Source: an uncultured Fidelibacterota bacterium
GTDB taxonomy: Bacteria > Fidelibacterota > Marinisomatia > SCGC-AAA003-L08 > D37C17
Assembly (NCBI GenBank): GCA_913049525.1
Contig: CAJWYZ010000035.1
Span: forward strand, 1-10,310
Length of the DNA stretch: 10,310 bases
Direction of reading: 5' to 3'
Below the pieces are notes generated by a model, which saw nothing but the letters and a program-made list of their open reading frames with translations, did not search any database and was not told the origin of the DNA. Of this stretch, positions 1,552 through 10,310 are shown piece after piece. A program made the position numbers and the translations under genes. Numbering within the stretch: position 1 is the first letter of the stretch; every line of letters starts with the position of its first letter.

Positions 1552-4404
1552 TTACTGATATTTTCGGGTATTTTTCCATTGGTTTATGGAATCAAAAGAG
1601 GATTTAATATTTTCTCCAACATTATGCTCCTTAGCATAGAGGAGAACAGTAGCCCTTTCCAGCGTTTCATTTGCGAGGACTTTAGCTAATACTTCTACAG
1701 ATTTCTCTCTGGTCAAGTTTTCCACTGCCTGAATAAGCTCCTCATTTCTATTAAAATTACCGTTATAATCAAATGCCATGGTATAATATTTACCAGCCTG
1801 TTCTTCGATACTGGTGGGCTTTTCTTTTATTTTTTCAATAACAGAATTTTTAATAGCCAAAAAATCTTCTTCAGGTAATTGTCTGAGAGAATCTGGCAAG
1901 GTTAATGAGAACTGTTCCGCCTGATTAGCTAAATATTCTGCAGGATGATTTCCAGATTGGATAATAAAATAGAAATAACTGGATTTCTCTGCACTGGCAG
2001 CTCCACCCCACACAATATAACCCAGCTGCTGATTGGTTCGCATTTCCAGAAAGAACGGTGACCCTACAAAATTACCAATAACCTGAGCTTGCGCAGCTTC
2101 TTCAATACTGTTTTCACCAAAATACTGCAATCGCCATAAGCATGAATTGTTCACCTGAGTTTTCAAAACCTGAGTAATATCTTCTCCAGCTGTGAAATCA
2201 AGACGTCCCTGATGGATTACCTTTTTCCATTTCTCCGGCTTGATTTTCAAAATTTCTGTAAATAAATCCGTATTTACTCTGGCTTGACTCTCAGACACAT
2301 TGCCATATATCAAACCTTCAATATACCCTTTCTTTAATAGCGCTTTTGAAAACTCCTTCACTTCAAATAATGTCATTTTGCCAGCTTCATCAGCCATTTC
2401 CGGACTGTTATAATAATATTTTCTAAGCATTTTCCGCATACCCTCACGTGCAATACCAGTAGCATTTCCTAAGGCAACATTTTTCCAGTCTCTAATCATT
2501 TTATCCCGAAGTGCTTCAAACTGTCCTTCAGGAATAGAAATATTTTTCATATTTAGAAGGACTTCTTTTAACAAATCATCAATTGAGTCACTATATCCGT
2601 TAACAACGATGGAAATTCCCTCAGCATCATTGGATACATTATAATTCATACCTGCCAATTTAGCAGGATAAGACGCCTCGTTCATTGACTCATTAACTGC
2701 AGCGATATACAAGGTCATTAGCACCTGGCTGCGTAAATCAGTAAATTTTTCTGGGGAGTATATTTTATATCTATAGGATGCCTTAGGCCGCTGAAAATCG
2801 GTATCTCTTCCCCAATACAGCTTAAGTCCTTCAGAATCTTCCAGAAGTATAGGGTCTTGACTTACATTATTAGATCCAGATAGCAAGTTGGCATTTTCAG
2901 GCAAGTATAGATTTGGCTCAGGAAGATGTAATTCCGCATACATGGTTGGTGCTGACAATTTATCAAACACGCTGCCTTCAATCTCTTCATAATTATAATT
3001 CGATTTATACCAGAACTCTTCCAGCGGCGTTTCCTGTCTGCTGTCAGAAAGTACACAGAGCATATTTTTAGGATGGATGTAAGATAGAACTTTCAAATAT
3101 GCTTCAGGATCCGGATTTCCAAAATGGTACTCTACTCGATGGGCAATATCCATGGGGTAAAATGCCAGATTATTGGCAAAGGAAATTGCTTTCCAAGCTC
3201 CTTCCCCCTTATCAGAATACACCTCTTCCAGTTTGGCAATAGTTTGCTGTTCATTAAAAATATAGTTTTTAAATCCTTCTTTTTTTAACATGTCCACATA
3301 GGAAAAGAAATAACCCAGGACTTCCTGATAATTAGACACACCCTTCTCCGTAAGCTGTATATTGACTCCAGCAGAACCATAGTCTGGAGTATCAGGGCTT
3401 CCACCACCATTAAGACCTGTTGCTAAACCTTTATCCTTCAAGAATGACAATAAGCTCCCTTTGCCTTCATGCCCCATAAGGCTGCCCAAAATACTCATAG
3501 GCTTACTATCATAATATTGATATAAATCGATAGGCAAAGGGAATTCCAATCCCAATTCTTTCTTATCTTTTACCGGTTTAACCCTAATGAGACGCAGTGC
3601 ATCTTTCTCAGATAAATAAACCGGCGGGTATTCAATATCTGGAGCTTGATTATTCTTAATTTCGCTGAAATAGGTATGTGCCCAAATTTCCATATCAGCA
3701 ATGGGATATTTGCTTAGTAATGCCAATGCCATTTGATTAGCAGAATAATATTTTTTATGAAAGTCCAGTAAAACTTGACGATCGACTTTTTCTAATGTTT
3801 CCAGCGATCCAATTTCAAAATGGTTACTAGGATGATCACTATTATAAATATTTCGTTTTATTTGACGCATGCGCCAGTAATCATGCTCGAGATTTTTTTG
3901 GAATTCAGAATTTACTGCATTCTGTTCACGAGTTGTGTAATCAGGGTTAAATGCAGGGGCTATGAAAAATTGAGCGAATCGGTCTAAAGCGCCCTCATAG
4001 GCTTCATGAATGACCTCGAATAAATAATTGGTATGATCTTCTGCAGTATAGGCATTAGAGTAACCACCATTATTAGACAGGTACATCTTGTAATCTTCTA
4101 CATCTGGGTATTTTTCAGTCCCTAGAAATAATAAATGTTCTAAAAAATGAGCCAAACCCTGGGCATCTTTCGGGTCAGATAGCGATCCCACTTTCACATT
4201 CATGGATGCCGCGGATATATTATATTTGGGATTAGATATTAGAATGACTTTTAATCCATTATCCAACATGAAAGTCTTGGTTTCTGTTTCATCTAGGGGA
4301 TGTTTGTCTGGGATGTTAATAACTGTGGTATTCATGGAAAATTTCCATAATAAAATAAAAATAACAAGTACGGTAACTAAAATATATTGTTGATTTTTCT
4401 TCAT
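1552..4404 (-). CDS. Membrane-anchored M16A zinc peptidase (pitrilysin/insulysin-like)
   Basis: At 950 residues this has the usual length of the long M16A peptidases (E. coli protease III, insulin-degrading enzyme). An N-terminal hydrophobic segment (8-20) follows basic residues K2 and K3, indicating a signal anchor or signal peptide and action outside the cytoplasm. The inverted zinc motif HFLEH is at 86-90: H86 and H90 bind zinc, E89 is the catalytic base, and E167 in NAVNSEFQ is the third ligand, 81 residues after H86 as in the family. GHEGKGSL (311-318) matches the conserved segment of the second domain. In the C-terminal half, MRTNQQLGYIVW carries R789 and Y796, equivalent to the substrate-binding Arg/Tyr pair of insulysin. 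All key residues are present, so it should be active on short peptides. The ATG is supported by a strong ribosome site. It begins 25 nt after the SSS-NamZ gene. A role in degrading wall-linked or other periplasmic peptides is inference. Confidence 0.95.
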   Translation of the reverse strand: MKKNQQYILVTVLVIFILLWKFSMNTTVINIPDKHPLDETETKTFMLDNGLKVILISNPKYNISAASMNVKVGSLSDPKDAQGLAHFLEHLLFLGTEKYPDVEDYKMYLSNNGGYSNAYTAEDHTNYLFEVIHEAYEGALDRFAQFFIAPAFNPDYTTREQNAVNSEFQKNLEHDYWRMRQIKRNIYNSDHPSNHFEIGSLETLEKVDRQVLLDFHKKYYSANQMALALLSKYPIADMEIWAHTYFSEIKNNQAPDIEYPPVYLSEKDALRLIRVKPVKDKKELGLEFPLPIDLYQYYDSKPMSILGSLMGHEGKGSLLSFLKDKGLATGLNGGGSPDTPDYGSAGVNIQLTEKGVSNYQEVLGYFFSYVDMLKKEGFKNYIFNEQQTIAKLEEVYSDKGEGAWKAISFANNLAFYPMDIAHRVEYHFGNPDPEAYLKVLSYIHPKNMLCVLSDSRQETPLEEFWYKSNYNYEEIEGSVFDKLSAPTMYAELHLPEPNLYLPENANLLSGSNNVSQDPILLEDSEGLKLYWGRDTDFQRPKASYRYKIYSPEKFTDLRSQVLMTLYIAAVNESMNEASYPAKLAGMNYNVSNDAEGISIVVNGYSDSIDDLLKEVLLNMKNISIPEGQFEALRDKMIRDWKNVALGNATGIAREGMRKMLRKYYYNSPEMADEAGKMTLFEVKEFSKALLKKGYIEGLIYGNVSESQARVNTDLFTEILKIKPEKWKKVIHQGRLDFTAGEDITQVLKTQVNNSCLWRLQYFGENSIEEAAQAQVIGNFVGSPFFLEMRTNQQLGYIVWGGAASAEKSSYFYFIIQSGNHPAEYLANQAEQFSLTLPDSLRQLPEEDFLAIKNSVIEKIKEKPTSIEEQAGKYYTMAFDYNGNFNRNEELIQAVENLTREKSVEVLAKVLANETLERATVLLYAKEHNVGENIKSSFDSINQWKNTRKYQ

Positions 4405-4409
4405 AGTAA

Positions 4410-4416
4410 CTCCTTT
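4410..4416 (-). promoter_or_regulatory. Strong ribosome binding site of the M16 peptidase
   Basis: The coding strand reads AAAGGAG, followed by five bases and the ATG at 4402-4404. It is the best Shine-Dalgarno match in the window. It lies in the 25-nt gap after the SSS-NamZ stop codon (TGA, 4430-4432), so the peptidase can be translated independently within a shared transcript. Confidence 0.75.
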
Positions 4417-4429
4417 AGAAATTAATTTA

Positions 4430-7012
4430 TCAGTAAATTAAATATTTTTTTCTTAATTCAATAAATTGTGTATAGGTAGTGTCACTCGCTAATAATTTTT
4501 CGGCTGTGATATCCTTCTCATTGGCAAGTCTTAGTCTGTCTGAACCATATAATTTATCAATAAAATTGGTATCTAGAAACTTGAATTTTTCAGGATGTTG
4601 ATCTTGTAGAATTTGAAGAAGATGTATTGTCCATATCAATGGGTGTTCTAATGTTATTATACGAATCCCTTTACACTCTTCTCCCTCATATTTTGGATAT
4701 TTTGCAGCGGGTATAGATTGAGGAGTGAAACTGATTAATTCATATTTATCACTCTTTGAACTAAATTTCTGCAACTTATCAGCTAGAACTTTATTATCCA
4801 ACCATGGCGCGCCAAATAGTTTAAAGGGCAAATCTGTTCCCCTGCCTTCAGATAAATTGGTTCCTTCTAACAAACATAAACCCTGATAGAGCCAAGCCGT
4901 TTCTACATTTGGCATATTGGGCGATGGTGGTACATTGAAAGCATGCGCCTTCACCTTTTCATCAATTTTACCTTTGTATGCAATTACATTTAAATCTGCT
5001 TTCATACCATTTTCTAGCCAGCTTTCCCCATTTATCATCTGCGCCAATTCTCCCACACTCATTCCATGACGAACAGGAATAGGATGCATCCCTACAAATG
5101 ATGCAAACTCCATTTCCAATATTACTCCCTCAACCTCATGACCTAACGGATTTACTCTATCCAAAACAATAAAAGGAATACCATTTTCAGCCGCGGACTC
5201 CATTGCCAGAGTTAAAGTACTCACATAGGTATAATAACGAACGCCAATATCCTGCATATCAAAGATCAGGATATCAATTCCCTTGAGCATTTCGGATGTG
5301 GGCTTCTTTGTTTTTCCATACAAGCTATAAATGGGTGCGCCTGTGAGATTTTCAAATCCATTATCCACTTTTTCGCCTGCCCCTACTACTCCCTTAAAGC
5401 CATGTTCAGGGGAAAATACTGCCTTTATTCTTACACCTTCATCGTGAGCCAGTTTAATGAGATGATCATCGTGGTAATCCACTGAAGTATGGTTTACCAC
5501 TACAGCTACATTTTTCCCCTTTAATACAGAAAATCCATCTTCAGATAAAACTTCAAGTCCATTTTGGTACTGCCCCCCCACTGCACTAAAATAGCCTGTG
5601 ATAAAGAGTATTACTGCAAACCCAAAACCTCTTTTCCATCCCAAATAATGTAGCCCATGGACAACTGCCAAATTCAAAACAACTGCTGCTCCAATGTACC
5701 AAGTCCATGCAACACCCAGCCATTGGAGAAAAAATACCGTACCTAAACTCGAAAGAAGTCCAAAAATCAGAACCGGGGTGGTAAACTTTTTATTTGAACA
5801 TGACAGAATAAACAAACCCAACAGGCCCCCATAAGTGAAAGATGCAATTTTTAAGCCCAATACCACTACAGCGGTATTGCCTTCATCAAAAAGTAACGCT
5901 AATGAAATAAGTAGAATTGCCCAAACTCCGCTCACAATCAGAGACCGTTTCAGGCTGATATTCTTCTGCATCCAATCGTGAATAGTGGATGATGCCAGTG
6001 AATTAATGGATGAACTGAGTGTGGACATTGCCGCTGAAAGTACACCAGCCAAAAGTATCCCTCGAATACCAATGGGCAAATGATCAACAATAAATGTAGA
6101 AAGTTCTCTGTCTTTAGTCATTTCAACACCGCCAGTAAATAACCAAATGAGGGAACCCGCTAATAAGAATATTAAAAATTGTAGAAATACAAAAAATCCA
6201 CTGCCAATCATGGCTTTTCGGGCAGAACTGAGATTACTGCAGGCTAGTACCCGCTGGACCATCATATAATCAGCGCCATGGGAGGCAAAGGAAAGCAGAA
6301 TTCCCCCTAAGAAAGCAGAACCAAAGAACCATGCATCCTTGAACATATTATCCGTGGTAAAGCGAAATATCCGTGTTTTACCAGCTTCTAATAAGGGTTC
6401 CCAACCTGAAAATTCTGAAGAGTTCAAAATGAAGAATATGACAATAGCGCCCCCTGTCAAATACAACACAAATTGAAAGCTGTCCACCCAGAGAACGGTA
6501 CGAATACCACCAGACAGAGTATAAACCATAGTCACTGCACCAATTATGAGAACAGCCATCCAAATGGGCCAACCCGTCACTACCTGTACTACCACTGCAG
6601 TAGCCAGAAAGCGTACCCCATCTGCAAATAATCGGGTAATGAGAAATATTCCTGAAGCAGTCTTCTGAACCGGCTTACCAAAACGTGAGCCTAATATCTC
6701 ATATATGGAAGTAATATTCCCTTTAAAATATTGTGGGAGGAGAAAAATCGACACCAATACTCTCCCCAGAATATAACCCATTGCCAATTGCAGAAAGAAC
6801 CAGTCACCACGGTAGGCTAATCCAGGTACGGACACAAAAGTAAGTACAGATGTTTCTGTTGCCACAATGGAAAACATAGCCACCCACCAGGGCGTATTGC
6901 GTCCAGCTAAAAAATAATCCTCTGCTGATTTATTTTTCCGGGAATTATAAATGCCGTAGGCAGAAATTCCACCTAGGAAGAAAAGAATAATACCTAGATC
7001 AATATAATGCAT
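4430..7012 (-). CDS. namZ: Fusion: sodium:solute symporter (SSS) + NamZ-type exo-beta-N-acetylmuramidase (DUF1343/GH171)
   Basis: The protein has 860 residues in one uninterrupted frame. Residues 1-478 form an SSS transporter with about 14 predicted helices. The TM9 segment AAMSTLSSSINS (327-338) matches the Na+-site helix (TM8 of the LeuT core), and AGRNTPWW (36-43) is typical of the family. Basic loops (RKNK near 25, GKPVQK near 115, SARK near 265, SNKK near 407, WKRG at 459) mark the cytoplasmic side, so the N-terminus, the C-terminus and the attached domain lie outside. Residues about 484-860 form a full NamZ domain: FSPEHG (533-538), FDMQDIGVRYYTY (584-596), LDRVNPLG (617-624), PVRHGMSVGEL (646-656), PPSPNMP (695-701), EGTNLSEGRGTD (717-728). 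NamZ releases terminal MurNAc from peptidoglycan sugar chains; the symporter is predicted to import the product with Na+. The start lies 7 nt after the NagZ-AmiE gene with only a weak GAAGAG ribosome site. The domains are certain; the transported substrate is inferred. Confidence 0.93.
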   Translation of the reverse strand: MHYIDLGIILFFLGGISAYGIYNSRKNKSAEDYFLAGRNTPWWVAMFSIVATETSVLTFVSVPGLAYRGDWFFLQLAMGYILGRVLVSIFLLPQYFKGNITSIYEILGSRFGKPVQKTASGIFLITRLFADGVRFLATAVVVQVVTGWPIWMAVLIIGAVTMVYTLSGGIRTVLWVDSFQFVLYLTGGAIVIFFILNSSEFSGWEPLLEAGKTRIFRFTTDNMFKDAWFFGSAFLGGILLSFASHGADYMMVQRVLACSNLSSARKAMIGSGFFVFLQFLIFLLAGSLIWLFTGGVEMTKDRELSTFIVDHLPIGIRGILLAGVLSAAMSTLSSSINSLASSTIHDWMQKNISLKRSLIVSGVWAILLISLALLFDEGNTAVVVLGLKIASFTYGGLLGLFILSCSNKKFTTPVLIFGLLSSLGTVFFLQWLGVAWTWYIGAAVVLNLAVVHGLHYLGWKRGFGFAVILFITGYFSAVGGQYQNGLEVLSEDGFSVLKGKNVAVVVNHTSVDYHDDHLIKLAHDEGVRIKAVFSPEHGFKGVVGAGEKVDNGFENLTGAPIYSLYGKTKKPTSEMLKGIDILIFDMQDIGVRYYTYVSTLTLAMESAAENGIPFIVLDRVNPLGHEVEGVILEMEFASFVGMHPIPVRHGMSVGELAQMINGESWLENGMKADLNVIAYKGKIDEKVKAHAFNVPPSPNMPNVETAWLYQGLCLLEGTNLSEGRGTDLPFKLFGAPWLDNKVLADKLQKFSSKSDKYELISFTPQSIPAAKYPKYEGEECKGIRIITLEHPLIWTIHLLQILQDQHPEKFKFLDTNFIDKLYGSDRLRLANEKDITAEKLLASDTTYTQFIELRKKYLIY
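5573..5579 (-). other. G7 homopolymer at the SSS/NamZ junction
   Basis: The coding strand has seven consecutive G in codons 478-480 (GTG GGG GGG), exactly between the last helix and the NamZ domain. Gain or loss of one G leads to a stop within about 7 or 16 codons, giving a symporter without the enzyme. Another G7 run exists at 8970-8976, so the run itself is not unique in this window. Confidence 0.6.
5579..5626 (-). other. Extra helix (TM14) joining symporter to NamZ, signal-peptide-like
   Basis: Residues 463-478 of the fusion form a hydrophobic segment (FGFAVILFITGYFSAV) preceded by K460 and R461 and followed by small residues: A477, V478, G479, G480. This is the layout of a signal peptide, including a possible signal peptidase I site (A477-x-G479). 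A standalone NamZ would carry its export signal at this point. It may therefore be a former NamZ signal peptide that became the last helix of the transporter. This is inference from pattern. Confidence 0.5.
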
Positions 7013-7019
7013 AAAATAA

Positions 7020-9851
7020 CTACTCTTCTACTGGCTTGATAAGTACTTCCATGACTCTATTATAAAAATCCCTCCTGATTCCATACATCTCCTTACTCCC
7101 CTCATCTCCTTTACGGCTGGGATGAACCCGATTGGTAAGCAGTACGATGATGATTTCTTCATTAGGATCAATCCAAAGTGATGTGCCGGTAAAACCCAGA
7201 TGCCCAAATGAACCGGGAGTAAAGTAATCCCCGGCAATTGATTTACCAGATTGCGAGGGAGTATCCCAGCCCAATGCCAAATCTGAATCCTGTGGAATAT
7301 GTTGTACTTTGGTAAATTCTTGAATCTGTGATTTTTTTAAAATACGTCTGCCTTCCCAAATCCCCCCATCCACCAACATTTGAGCATAACGGGTAATTTC
7401 TTTCGCAGTGGAAAATATCCCTGCATGACCAGAGACACCTCCCATAAGATGGGTATTTTCATCATGTACTTCTCCATGAATCAGCCGATTGCGATAGATG
7501 CTATCTATTTCTGTAGGAGCAACTTTCCGTTTCCATTCCAGCGGAGGGTTATAGCATGTATGATGCATTCCTAAGGGACCAAAAAAATAGGAGTGGGCCA
7601 ATCTATCTATAGACCGATTGGCAACTTTCTCAATAATAGAAGTTAGCAGAATAAATCCCAAATCACTGTACTCATAATGACTTCCCGGCTCTGAATGCAA
7701 TTTTACATTCAGAATATAATCCAATACGTCTTCTTTGGTACTTATCTGGTCATCTAAAAAAAACTGGTAATATCCTGGTAACCCGGAAGAATGGGTAAGC
7801 AGATGTCGAATGGTAATATCTTCCTTCCCATTACCTGTAAATTGAGGGTAGAATTGTTGAACCGTATGTTCCAGAGACAGTTTCTTCTGAGCAATGAGTT
7901 TCATGGTGATGGGAGTGGCTGACAGGACTTTTGTAAGGGAGGCAATATCATAAATACTTTCCTGCTTCACCGGCGGAGAGCTGTTGTCGTAGGTATGTCT
8001 GCCGAAACCTCTGCTGGCAATTAATTTCCCTCTGTGAACGACTGCTACCTGAGCACCGGGAAATATTCTGTTTTCAATAGCACTGTCAATAACCGACCAT
8101 GCATTTATAAATTCCACTTGCTGCACCTCTCCCCAGTCATTAAAGCGTTTTTTTTTAGGGATTCCAAATCCTCTATCCAATTGAGGTGTGAGACTCACTG
8201 GCAATTTCCCATCTACTTTAACTCTACCCCAAATAGCCTCTGATATCGCCTGAACAGAAACAGAACCATATCCATAAGCACAGACATAGGTTTCCAACAA
8301 GTCATAATCAGGAAGATAGGGAGAACCATAGCTCACTGCCACAATGGGGATATCCAATTGTCTCAATTCTGATAGGAGTAAGGAATGGGTGGAATCAATA
8401 CTGGCGATACCTTTATCCATTCGGATACGAACCACCAGAGATACCAAAATTTGATCCACCCCCTTCAGTTGATTCAGAATATCTTTTCGGCCTAGTTTGG
8501 ACAATGGATTATTAATCAACATTTCTGCAACACTACCGTGAGTCCTATTTAAATCTCTATTGAGAGATTTCAGATATCCACTAGCACCTTCATCCAATGA
8601 AAGAATTAGGTGTGCCAACGAGTCAATTTTTTCAGGAATGAGAGGTAATTGATGATTTTCATCTTTTACAATGGTAATTGATTTTTGCGCAATCACTTTG
8701 GCTTTAGCAGAATGTTCGCTTTTACCAATGATGGTTTCCAATTCTGAAAAGGGGATTTGTGCTGCACCATTTAACAAGCCCATTTTGGATTTCATTTTCC
8801 ATATTCTTTGAACAGATTTATTAATACGCTTCTCATTAATTCGCCCGGACTTTACCGCCGATAAAACAGATTTTAGAGTTTGTTCTACATCCATAGGCAA
8901 TAAGAGAATATCTGCACCTGCTTCTATAGCCCTCACTGCGGATTCTCCTGCCCAAGCTGATTTGGTAAGCCCCCCCATTTCCATTCCATCGGTGACGATG
9001 ATGCCATCAAAACCCAATTCATTGCGTAGTAATTCGGTAGAAATGGCATGAGAATGGGACGCAGGTATCCCAGATTCATCCAGTCCAGGAAGTGCAATGT
9101 GACCAGCCATCATCATTTCTACATCTGCATTAATAGCAGCCTTGAAAGGTTTTAGTTCCAGATTCATTAATTCAGTTTTGCTACCTGTAATAGTTGGTAA
9201 ACTTGAATGACTATCCGTAGACGTATTGCCATGACCGGGAAAATGTTTGGCACAGGCAACGAGACCATTATCTTGCACACCCCTGATAAACTCAGTCCCA
9301 AATTTTGATACTGTTTCAGCATTATCAGAATAGGCCCGGAAATTAATTATAGGGTTATCCGGATTATTATTAATGTCCATCACCGGTGAAAAAGTAATAT
9401 GAACGCCTAAAGCACGTGCTTCTACTGCTGTGATTCGCCCCTGATCATAAGCCAAACTGCTATCACCCGTGGCAGCCATCGCCATATTGCTGGGAAAAAG
9501 GGTTCCACCCCCCATCCATTGTCCCAAGCCCCTTTCATAATCAGCGGCAACCAAGAGAGGATACTTTGCCCATTTCTGAAATTGCTGAATATTGTAGTAG
9601 CTACCATGAATACTGCCACCAAAAGAGATAACACCACCGATGCCATCTACTGATAAATATTTCTGAAGTTTCTTTCTATACCAATGTTCACTAGAATAAT
9701 AATCGCCTCTAATCCGCACCATAACCATTTGAGCAATTTTTTCTTCCAAAGTTAGATGGCTAATAGTTTCTGGGTACTGGGTGCTGGGTGCTGGGTTAGG
9801 CGGCAGAGCACATGCTATGAAAAATAAGAGAGGGAGAAAAATTTTATTCAT
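7020..9851 (-). CDS. nagZ: Fusion lipoprotein: NagZ-type beta-N-acetylglucosaminidase (GH3) + AmiE-like serine hydrolase
   Basis: The protein has 943 residues. The N-terminus is a signal peptide with a likely lipobox (FIAC, Cys14), then a Pro/Ser linker. The GH3 domain covers about 30-360. KHFPGHGNTSTDSH (202-215) is the NagZ signature, with the D213/H215 acid-base dyad, and IVTDGMEM (285-292) holds the nucleophile D288. A second alpha/beta GH3 domain covers about 384-560. From about 578 a class C beta-lactamase-fold hydrolase follows: S638-L-T-K641 (SxxK), Y728-S-D730 (YxN-like) and GHLGFTGTS (883-891, third motif). NagZ removes GlcNAc, and the AmiE family cleaves the MurNAc-peptide amide. 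In B. subtilis these are separate adjacent genes, whereas one-chain fusions occur in Bacteroidota-like bacteria. The start overlaps alr by 8 nt without a ribosome site, implying translational coupling. The second domain could instead be a D-amino-acid peptidase or esterase, since this superfamily is broad. Confidence 0.93.
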   Translation of the reverse strand: MNKIFLPLLFFIACALPPNPAPSTQYPETISHLTLEEKIAQMVMVRIRGDYYSSEHWYRKKLQKYLSVDGIGGVISFGGSIHGSYYNIQQFQKWAKYPLLVAADYERGLGQWMGGGTLFPSNMAMAATGDSSLAYDQGRITAVEARALGVHITFSPVMDINNNPDNPIINFRAYSDNAETVSKFGTEFIRGVQDNGLVACAKHFPGHGNTSTDSHSSLPTITGSKTELMNLELKPFKAAINADVEMMMAGHIALPGLDESGIPASHSHAISTELLRNELGFDGIIVTDGMEMGGLTKSAWAGESAVRAIEAGADILLLPMDVEQTLKSVLSAVKSGRINEKRINKSVQRIWKMKSKMGLLNGAAQIPFSELETIIGKSEHSAKAKVIAQKSITIVKDENHQLPLIPEKIDSLAHLILSLDEGASGYLKSLNRDLNRTHGSVAEMLINNPLSKLGRKDILNQLKGVDQILVSLVVRIRMDKGIASIDSTHSLLLSELRQLDIPIVAVSYGSPYLPDYDLLETYVCAYGYGSVSVQAISEAIWGRVKVDGKLPVSLTPQLDRGFGIPKKKRFNDWGEVQQVEFINAWSVIDSAIENRIFPGAQVAVVHRGKLIASRGFGRHTYDNSSPPVKQESIYDIASLTKVLSATPITMKLIAQKKLSLEHTVQQFYPQFTGNGKEDITIRHLLTHSSGLPGYYQFFLDDQISTKEDVLDYILNVKLHSEPGSHYEYSDLGFILLTSIIEKVANRSIDRLAHSYFFGPLGMHHTCYNPPLEWKRKVAPTEIDSIYRNRLIHGEVHDENTHLMGGVSGHAGIFSTAKEITRYAQMLVDGGIWEGRRILKKSQIQEFTKVQHIPQDSDLALGWDTPSQSGKSIAGDYFTPGSFGHLGFTGTSLWIDPNEEIIIVLLTNRVHPSRKGDEGSKEMYGIRRDFYNRVMEVLIKPVEE
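8148..8156 (-). other. A9 homopolymer at the NagZ/AmiE domain junction
   Basis: The coding strand has nine consecutive A in codons 566-568 (three Lys), the longest single-base run I noticed. It lies in the linker between the GH3 C-terminal domain and the serine hydrolase domain. One extra A gives a stop three codons later (ACG CTT TAA); one fewer A gives a stop within about 16 codons. A runs of this length are known to permit transcriptional slippage in bacteria. Its use here is unproven. Confidence 0.6.
9771..9798 (-). repeat. Heptanucleotide tandem repeat (4 x 7 bp) near the 5' end of nagZ-amiE
   Basis: The plus strand reads TGGGTAC, TGGGTGC, TGGGTGC, TGGGTTA in tandem. It encodes the Pro/Ala/Ser linker NPAPSTQYP (19-27) just after the predicted lipid-modified Cys14. 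Seven is not a multiple of three, so gain or loss of one unit would shift the frame near the start of the protein. Confidence 0.8.
9844..9851 (-). promoter_or_regulatory. Overlapping stop/start linking alr and nagZ-amiE
   Basis: The coding strand ATGAATAA holds the nagZ-amiE start ATG (9849-9851) and the alr stop TAA (9844-9846). The preceding bases are AT-rich without a Shine-Dalgarno match, so the second gene is probably translated by ribosomes finishing alr. Confidence 0.6.
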
Positions 9852-10310
9852 TTATAAGATTTCGCTTAACACGGGAAGATAGCCCTGTAAGAAATTCATA
9901 GGGGATTTTACTATATTTTTTAGAGATATATTCTAATTGGTTATTTTCATGATCTCCACCCCAAACCACAGCTTCATCACCCTCATTAATTGTATCTTCT
10001 CCACAATTTATGGCAATTAAATCCATTGATATCTTCCCGATTATAGGATAAATGCATCCATTCAACTCTACACCTCCAGAATTAGAAAAATCTGTTGGGA
10101 TACCATCTGCATATCCAGCCTGTAGAATTGCAATTGTTTCATTCTTTTTAGCAATATAGAGACGATTATATCCCACCGAATCTCCTGCCTCCATTTTTTT
10201 TACCAAAATTACAGGTGCTTTCATTTTCATCACTGGCTTTAATTTATTATGGGGCATTCCCATTGGCGAGACGCCATAAAGAGAAATCCCGGGACGTACC
10301 ATGTTAAAAT
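9844..10310 (-). CDS. alr: Alanine racemase, C-terminal part (5' end outside the window)
   Basis: About 155 residues of the C-terminal part are visible; the frame is open at the right edge and the PLP-lysine barrel start is missing. The ATG at 10300-10302 is internal: it is preceded in frame by Phe-Asn and sits inside the conserved segment MVRPGISLYG. SVGYNRLY (10156-10179) carries the catalytic tyrosine of the second active-site base (codon 10168-10170). LQAGYADG and GKISMDL are the usual C-terminal domain motifs, the latter with the Met-Asp pair that contacts the partner subunit's active site. The enzyme interconverts L- and D-alanine with PLP in the cytoplasm, supplying D-Ala for peptidoglycan. 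Its stop overlaps the nagZ-amiE start (ATGAATAA, 8 nt), which ties it to the wall-recycling genes. A role in handling L-Ala released from muropeptides is possible but inferred. Confidence 0.95.
   Translation of the reverse strand, partial: FNMVRPGISLYGVSPMGMPHNKLKPVMKMKAPVILVKKMEAGDSVGYNRLYIAKKNETIAILQAGYADGIPTDFSNSGGVELNGCIYPIIGKISMDLIAINCGEDTINEGDEAVVWGGDHENNQLEYISKKYSKIPYEFLTGLSSRVKRNLINE

Follow-up and report, generated by a model that had tools for sequence, protein, structure and literature searches.

The stretch of DNA analysed here (the window) is 10,310 nucleotides long and comprises an entire contig (C35, CAJWYZ010000035.1) of an uncultured Fidelibacterota bacterium, whose genome of 1.49 Mb lies in 236 contigs and is 91.7% complete. 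On the minus strand, an open reading frame (ORF) at 4430..7012 encodes a protein of 860 amino acids that holds both a complete SSS sodium symporter and a complete NamZ exo-beta-N-acetylmuramidase, as identified from the ORF, Pfam matches, homologs and an AlphaFold2 model. The SSS domain (residues 1-460; 5633..7012, minus strand), assigned from Pfam, the match to the symporter SiaT and residue mapping, has 13 counted transmembrane helices, with the SSF domain and LeuT-type fold of the SSS/SLC5 sodium symporter family. It is followed by a fourteenth helix at about residues 461-480 (5573..5632, minus strand), and then by the NamZ domain (residues 484-860; 4433..5563, minus strand), placed by Pfam, matches to the structures 4k05 and 4jja, and invariant alignment columns. 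The Pfam spans are 33-412 for SSF, 502-703 for NamZ_N (247.5 bits, cut-off 26.9) and 708-860 for NamZ_C (123.4 bits, cut-off 25), and the FSPEHG motif that starts at residue 533 is invariant across 62 aligned fusions. NamZ belongs to family GH171, and PEHG is an active-site-region motif with a role in catalysis.

A sequence-only reading of the window had reported the two complete proteins in one frame and had proposed looking for the same domain order in protein databases. That order was found: all three Pfam domains occur in one protein in 110 of the 120 listed (best) homologues, at identities down to 45%, and two close homologues (P0046, P0062) carry the name Candidatus Marinimicrobia (SAR406). 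At least 14 of 60 relatives encode the three-domain fusion, every one in family f1; the phylum search took in 245 genomes, and its count of fusions is a minimum. Relatives with two separate genes, which had been named as a possible sign of assembly error, do exist, yet they occur beside relatives that are fused in frame. An assembly or frameshift artefact is ruled out by the recurrence of the same frame across many contigs and species, and the fusion is real and conserved. No recognisable description of an SSS-NamZ fusion was found in the literature searched, a weak negative since the main NamZ enzyme and MurT papers were not covered. In the PDB, residues 479-860 match NamZ structures (4k05, 4jja) best, and residues 1-458 match SiaT best. 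Like NamZ of Bacteroides fragilis (4k05, 4jja; DUF1343; PF07075/PF20732), the enzyme part has complete N and C domains, the same fold over 479-860 and PEHG; however, the known NamZ enzymes, among those compared, stand alone and carry a signal peptide of their own, whereas here NamZ forms the C-terminal part of a transporter.

Fourteen membrane helices were counted, and the AlphaFold2 model (mean predicted local distance difference test score 85.0; predicted template modelling score 0.59) contains a helix at 435-477 (model numbering) that includes helices 13 and 14. Averaged over the 62 aligned fusions, Lys and Arg together number 1.3 to 2.5 per loop for six of the seven inner loops, the remaining one having 0.61; on the outer side, four short loops have 0 to 0.02, the stretch past helix 14 has 0.60, and the two long loops (2.9 and 2.0) hold more acidic residues (3.8 and 3.7). 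A figure legend in PMC7918813 places the N terminus of SSS proteins outside, which, combined with a 14-helix topology, would put the NamZ part in the periplasm. The model-based prediction is that the NamZ domain lies at the outer face of the sodium symporter. The earlier count of 14 helices with both ends outside agrees with the AlphaFold2 helices, the loop charges and that legend, and a cytoplasmic C terminus, looked for as contrary evidence, was not predicted.

Comparison of split and fused relatives suggests how the protein came about. Among 37 Marinimicrobia loci, picked from homology matches and not by random draw, 23 have two consecutive genes, nine a forward fusion, one a reverse fusion, and four an SSS gene lacking NamZ directly downstream. 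The gap or overlap is 25 bases or less in 19 of the 23 two-gene loci, with an overlap of exactly 4 bases in five. A hydrophobic head was present in 30 of 31 stand-alone NamZ proteins (three of the 31 adjoin reverse fusions), with a lipobox-like Cys in 10 of the 31 by a loose pattern. Junction comparison revealed that fused proteins retain this hydrophobic head at the junction, and that helix 14 of the fusion matches the signal-peptide-like head of stand-alone NamZ. The clearest pair comes from genus g9, in which the split G021 (4-base overlap) and the fused G017 (with some unread bases) have in common ...FFPGPTDYGIDIFFKKH / MFPGPTSYGIDIFFKKH after the hydrophobic stretch. An adjacent gene pair was probably the origin of the fusion, with loss of the intergenic stop and conversion of the NamZ signal peptide into helix 14; reuse of the signal peptide in this manner would have made any additional membrane segment unnecessary. 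In a tree built from 42 SSS domains, three changes are required to explain the forward fusion, counting gains and losses alike; well supported branches force at least three, and bootstraps gave three to four. The linkers of genus g1, genera g4/g7 and G017 are unlike one another, which favours separate gains, and the sequences indicate that the fusion probably arose more than once in the SAR406 group. A long open-frame figure had also pointed to fusions in two members of family f4 (G036, G039), but stop codons separate the genes there, and both are split.

The descent of helix 14 from a signal peptide is also what would be expected to leave it open to signal peptidase, which might cut the chain past helix 14 so that the two parts are made together and work separately, and the small-residue stretch SAVGG that follows helix 14 fits such a cut. 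However, SAVGG is not kept in close relatives, which have SAVRG (G003), YLSG (G005) or TFGEVPYR (G002) instead, and internal helices are seldom cleaved. We consider cleavage quite improbable.

The transporter domain was compared with SiaT (PDB 5nv9/5nva), for which PMC5931594 assigns binding of the N-acetylneuraminic acid carboxylate to Ser60, Thr63 and Arg135, the Na2 site to Ser342/343, and the Na3 site to Ser345/346/Asp182. Residue mapping places S330/T331 of the fusion at Na2 and D177/S333/S334 at Na3, and S55 and T58 at the places of Ser60 and Thr63, with R134 also near the sugar site. Within the SSS subfamily, S330 is kept in 37 of 37 sequences, and the T331 position is Thr in 35 and Ser in two. 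The likeness to SiaT thus covers the fold over residues 1-458, the Na2 and Na3 residues and two carboxylate-binding residues of helix 1; the differences are that identity is 25% over the aligned part, that the fusion's arginine (Arg134) sits one turn past the Arg135 place, and that SiaT has no enzyme domain. Judged from sequence and model together, the fusion is a putative inner-membrane enzyme-transporter in which a 13-helix SSS domain with the residues of both SiaT sodium sites is followed by helix 14, which leads out to the periplasm, and then by NamZ.

The conserved sodium-site residues also bear on the proposal that the SSS part is a sensor, or inactive, as in SSS-containing sensor kinases. 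Fusions of this kind exist: CbrA and MxtR, as described in PMC7918813, likewise join an SSS domain to a C-terminal functional domain. According to the same source, however, CbrA-type proteins have 13 helices and a kinase inside the cell, on the side opposite to that predicted for NamZ, so that a cytoplasmic signalling domain after 13 helices contrasts with a periplasmic hydrolase after 14. Pfam detected only NamZ domains after SSF, and a kinase or signalling domain is lacking. A sensory or inactive role for the SSS part is barely credible on this evidence.

An association between NamZ and SSS genes was also observed in Bacteroidales, examined through the best 80 of 323 loci, which were relatives of one Bacteroides protein. 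An SSS gene lies within 700 bases after NamZ on the same strand in 65 of these 80 loci, in the order opposite to that of Marinimicrobia, and is absent in 13; two loci were excluded as contig edges, one of which (L119) does have an SSS gene there. The Bacteroidales SSS proteins are 25-34% identical to the SSS part of the fusion (27% over 407 columns for a Tannerella sp. locus). Arg134 is present in 37 of 37 SSS proteins of the subfamily, in 67 of 67 SSS ORFs longer than 400 amino acids at the NamZ loci of Bacteroidales, but in none of eight other SSS paralogues. Its presence in both groups could be explained by common ancestry as well as by the same cargo.

The genes around the fusion lie on the minus strand, in the order alanine racemase, GH3 protein, fusion, M16 peptidase, two small ORFs and C14 peptidase, with close packing of the first three. 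The alanine racemase (9844..10308; ORF, Pfam) is represented by its C-terminal part, the gene being cut by the contig edge, and overlaps by 8 bases a 943-amino-acid protein (7020..9851; ORF, Pfam, NCBIfam) that combines a GH3 (NagZ-type) domain with a beta-lactamase/PBP4B-type domain. The best NCBIfam matches of this protein are PBP4B and beta-N-acetylhexosaminidase models, both below their cut-offs, its N terminus appears lipobox-like by eye, and the gap between its gene and the fusion is 7 bases. Downstream lies an M16 (pitrilysin-like) peptidase of 950 amino acids (1552..4404; ORF, Pfam, synteny), which is the downstream neighbour in the source genus and in G006 as well. Two small ORFs (844-1188 and 1226-1525, from the ORF listing) gave no match in the Pfam scan, and both L046 and L047, relatives in the same genus, keep their order. 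The last gene (3-827; ORF, Pfam), cut by the contig edge, encodes a caspase-like C14 peptidase whose N terminus is hydrophobic; L046 has a complete 827-amino-acid copy and the beginning of a second one. Locus L046 belongs to the relative G003, whose fusion is 97% identical to that of the source, and reads upstream as ABC ATPase, ABC-2 permease, BadF-type kinase and complete alanine racemase (L046 2867-3970).

The sequence-only reading had relied on MurT of Tannerella forsythia as an SSS-type precedent for transport of N-acetylmuramic acid (MurNAc). According to PMC5388701 and PMC5790795, the T. forsythia operon resembles the present system in that a NamZ-type gene stands beside a MurNAc transporter gene, a kinase and an etherase (order ampG, ybbC, murT, murK, murQ, from PMC5388701); one sentence of PMC5790795 places MurT in the sodium symporter superfamily and another contradicts it. 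Dysgonomonas sp. 521 (L133) has genes in the same order, encoding an AmpG-like protein, NamZ2, an HGSNAT-like protein of 389 amino acids in the murT position (18356-19525; HGSNAT_cat 22.9 bits, cut-off 22), MurK and MurQ. Of 18 Bacteroidales genomes, 16 gave a match, with 20 MurK loci in total; in these, the gene directly before MurK is HGSNAT-like in 12 and NamZ2 in one, and no SSS match was found in any of the 20, the T. forsythia sequence itself being outside the sample. By analogy of gene position, the T. forsythia MurT is probably HGSNAT-like rather than SSS, and, unlike the present case, its operon contains no fusion; as an SSS precedent, MurT is weakened.

The kinase of the L046 operon has as its best PDB match a MurNAc/GlcNAc kinase (8zo3, E 3.2e-24; GlcNAc, N-acetylglucosamine), followed by hexokinase and NAGK, and aligns weakly with Bacteroidales MurK (26% over 179 columns, E 0.004). 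A BadF-type kinase is present in 22 of the 37 loci, and in the source genome it lies on a separate contig (C146). MurQ was above cut-off in 47 of the 60 genomes and AnmK in 40, with 363.9 and 271.3 bits, respectively, in the source genome, both away from the operon. In the source genome, the MurQ gene directly adjoins a sodium:alanine symporter gene (L032 89-2392, G000:C68). The five genomes of streamlined family f6 among the 60 jointly lack AnmK, an above-cut-off MurQ and any close match to SSS/NamZ, and this joint absence is one loss by one clade. The HGSNAT-like MurT candidate occurs in 21 of the 60 genomes and in none of the 23 in f1, the family of forward fusions. AmpG (TIGR00901) matched in six of the 60 genomes, never above cut-off, although controls were above cut-off in only two of 14 genomes and distant AmpG proteins may escape this model. 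With a MurNAc sink present and a MurT-type importer not found in the source genome, the fusion stands out as the leading candidate for MurNAc entry. MurA exceeded its cut-off in 54 of the 60 genomes, and its 523 bits in the source genome rule out peptidoglycan auxotrophy there as the reason for the fusion.

The reading that we favour, with some confidence, is that MurNAc is released in the periplasm and taken up by the same protein in a Na+-driven manner. The GH3/NagZ-type neighbour would first remove GlcNAc, NamZ, working in the periplasm, would then cut MurNAc from peptidoglycan fragments at their non-reducing end, and the attached symporter would import the freed sugar together with Na+; inside, the MurNAc/GlcNAc-type kinase and MurQ would convert it to GlcNAc-6-phosphate and D-lactate. 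Cleavage and capture by one protein had already been proposed from the sequence. The cell-wall-sugar context of that proposal is supported by the NagZ-type GH3 domain, the kinase in relatives, MurQ and AnmK; the cargo and its capture by the same molecule are what we infer. A transported substrate unrelated to amino sugars, which would have spoken against the proposal, did not emerge from the analysis.

An alternative is that the transporter serves only to anchor NamZ near the inner membrane and carries GlcNAc, D-alanine or something unrelated. Stand-alone NamZ looks membrane-tethered in some relatives, given the lipobox-like heads noted above, and a MurNAc/GlcNAc-type kinase suits GlcNAc as well as MurNAc. 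Several further observations weigh against MurNAc uptake by the fusion. The alanine racemase and PBP4B-type domain in the operon would fit D-alanine. The SiaT Arg135 column is Ala in the subfamily (Ala130 in the source protein), and in the Bacteroidales SSS proteins the equivalents of S343 and S345 are Ala and Gly, respectively, in 66 of 67. Placement of the domains in the AlphaFold2 model is uncertain. Because MurA is present, the source cell is not dependent on imported MurNAc, and a partial, sub-cut-off AmpG-like match at a contig edge of the source genome is a possible other route. In addition to the four of the 37 chosen loci in which NamZ is not directly downstream, all 13 fetched loci of family f30 (L180-L186, L188-L191, L194 and L195, including the genome of L204, which shows a longer stretch) have an SSS protein 66-68% identical and lack NamZ in the roughly 1.5 kb flanking it to the left and right. 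The transporter thus also exists without an adjacent NamZ, and the argument that its cargo must be a NamZ product loses force. On the other hand, the residue pattern resembles that of the acidic-sugar symporter SiaT (S55, T58 and the sodium sites), the sodium:alanine symporter beside MurQ may give alanine another route, and NamZ-SSS adjacency recurs in Bacteroidales in the opposite gene order. Anchoring alone is, in our judgment, rather unlikely, and combined MurNAc release and uptake remains our preferred explanation.

The same SSS subfamily occurs in other arrangements. Reverse NamZ-SSS fusions in one frame were identified in three genomes of genus g25, family f8 (G044, G137 and G139; L062 6645-9305, L198 5003-7663 and L199 4682-7312); PEHG is lost in them and altered in the separate NamZ gene alongside, suggesting a decayed or re-purposed domain. 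In family f13, the SSS domain of G174:C55 (L197 3270-5900) is followed in frame by Beta-lactamase2 (PF13354, 56.1 bits), a partner that would also suit an anchoring role, and G175:C57 (L196 1589-4219) has an ORF of equal length, Pfam having been run on L197 only. In L204, the gene preceding the SSS gene (4097-5497) looks by eye like a type II dehydroquinate dehydratase. The NamZ and Beta-lactamase2 fusions indicate that periplasmic domains of different kinds have been added to one type of transporter. We tentatively suggest, at somewhat less than even odds, that this subfamily is a third kind of MurNAc importer, besides MurP of the phosphotransferase system and MurT, and a docking post onto which periplasmic cell-wall enzymes have repeatedly been grafted: NamZ at the C-terminal end several times, its signal peptide being reused for helix 14, then in a second genus a decayed NamZ at the N-terminal end, and in a third a Beta-lactamase2-type domain.

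A cultured member of the same phylum, Fidelibacter multiformis IA91, feeds on muropeptides and peptidoglycan fragments and frees D-lactate from MurNAc 6-phosphate, according to PMC11652737; unlike the source bacterium, whose genome has MurA, it is unable to synthesise peptidoglycan itself. When enzymes in the periplasm release small sugars, the product may be lost, and an enzyme built onto the importer, with the sugar probably cut loose right beside the importing gate, would explain how a free-living ocean bacterium retains it. The fusion would be a clean case of a hydrolase passing its product on to a secondary transporter, and it illustrates a simple path by which a signal peptide may become a transmembrane helix upon fusion of neighbouring genes. 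It is a candidate for the MurNAc importer of SAR406 bacteria.
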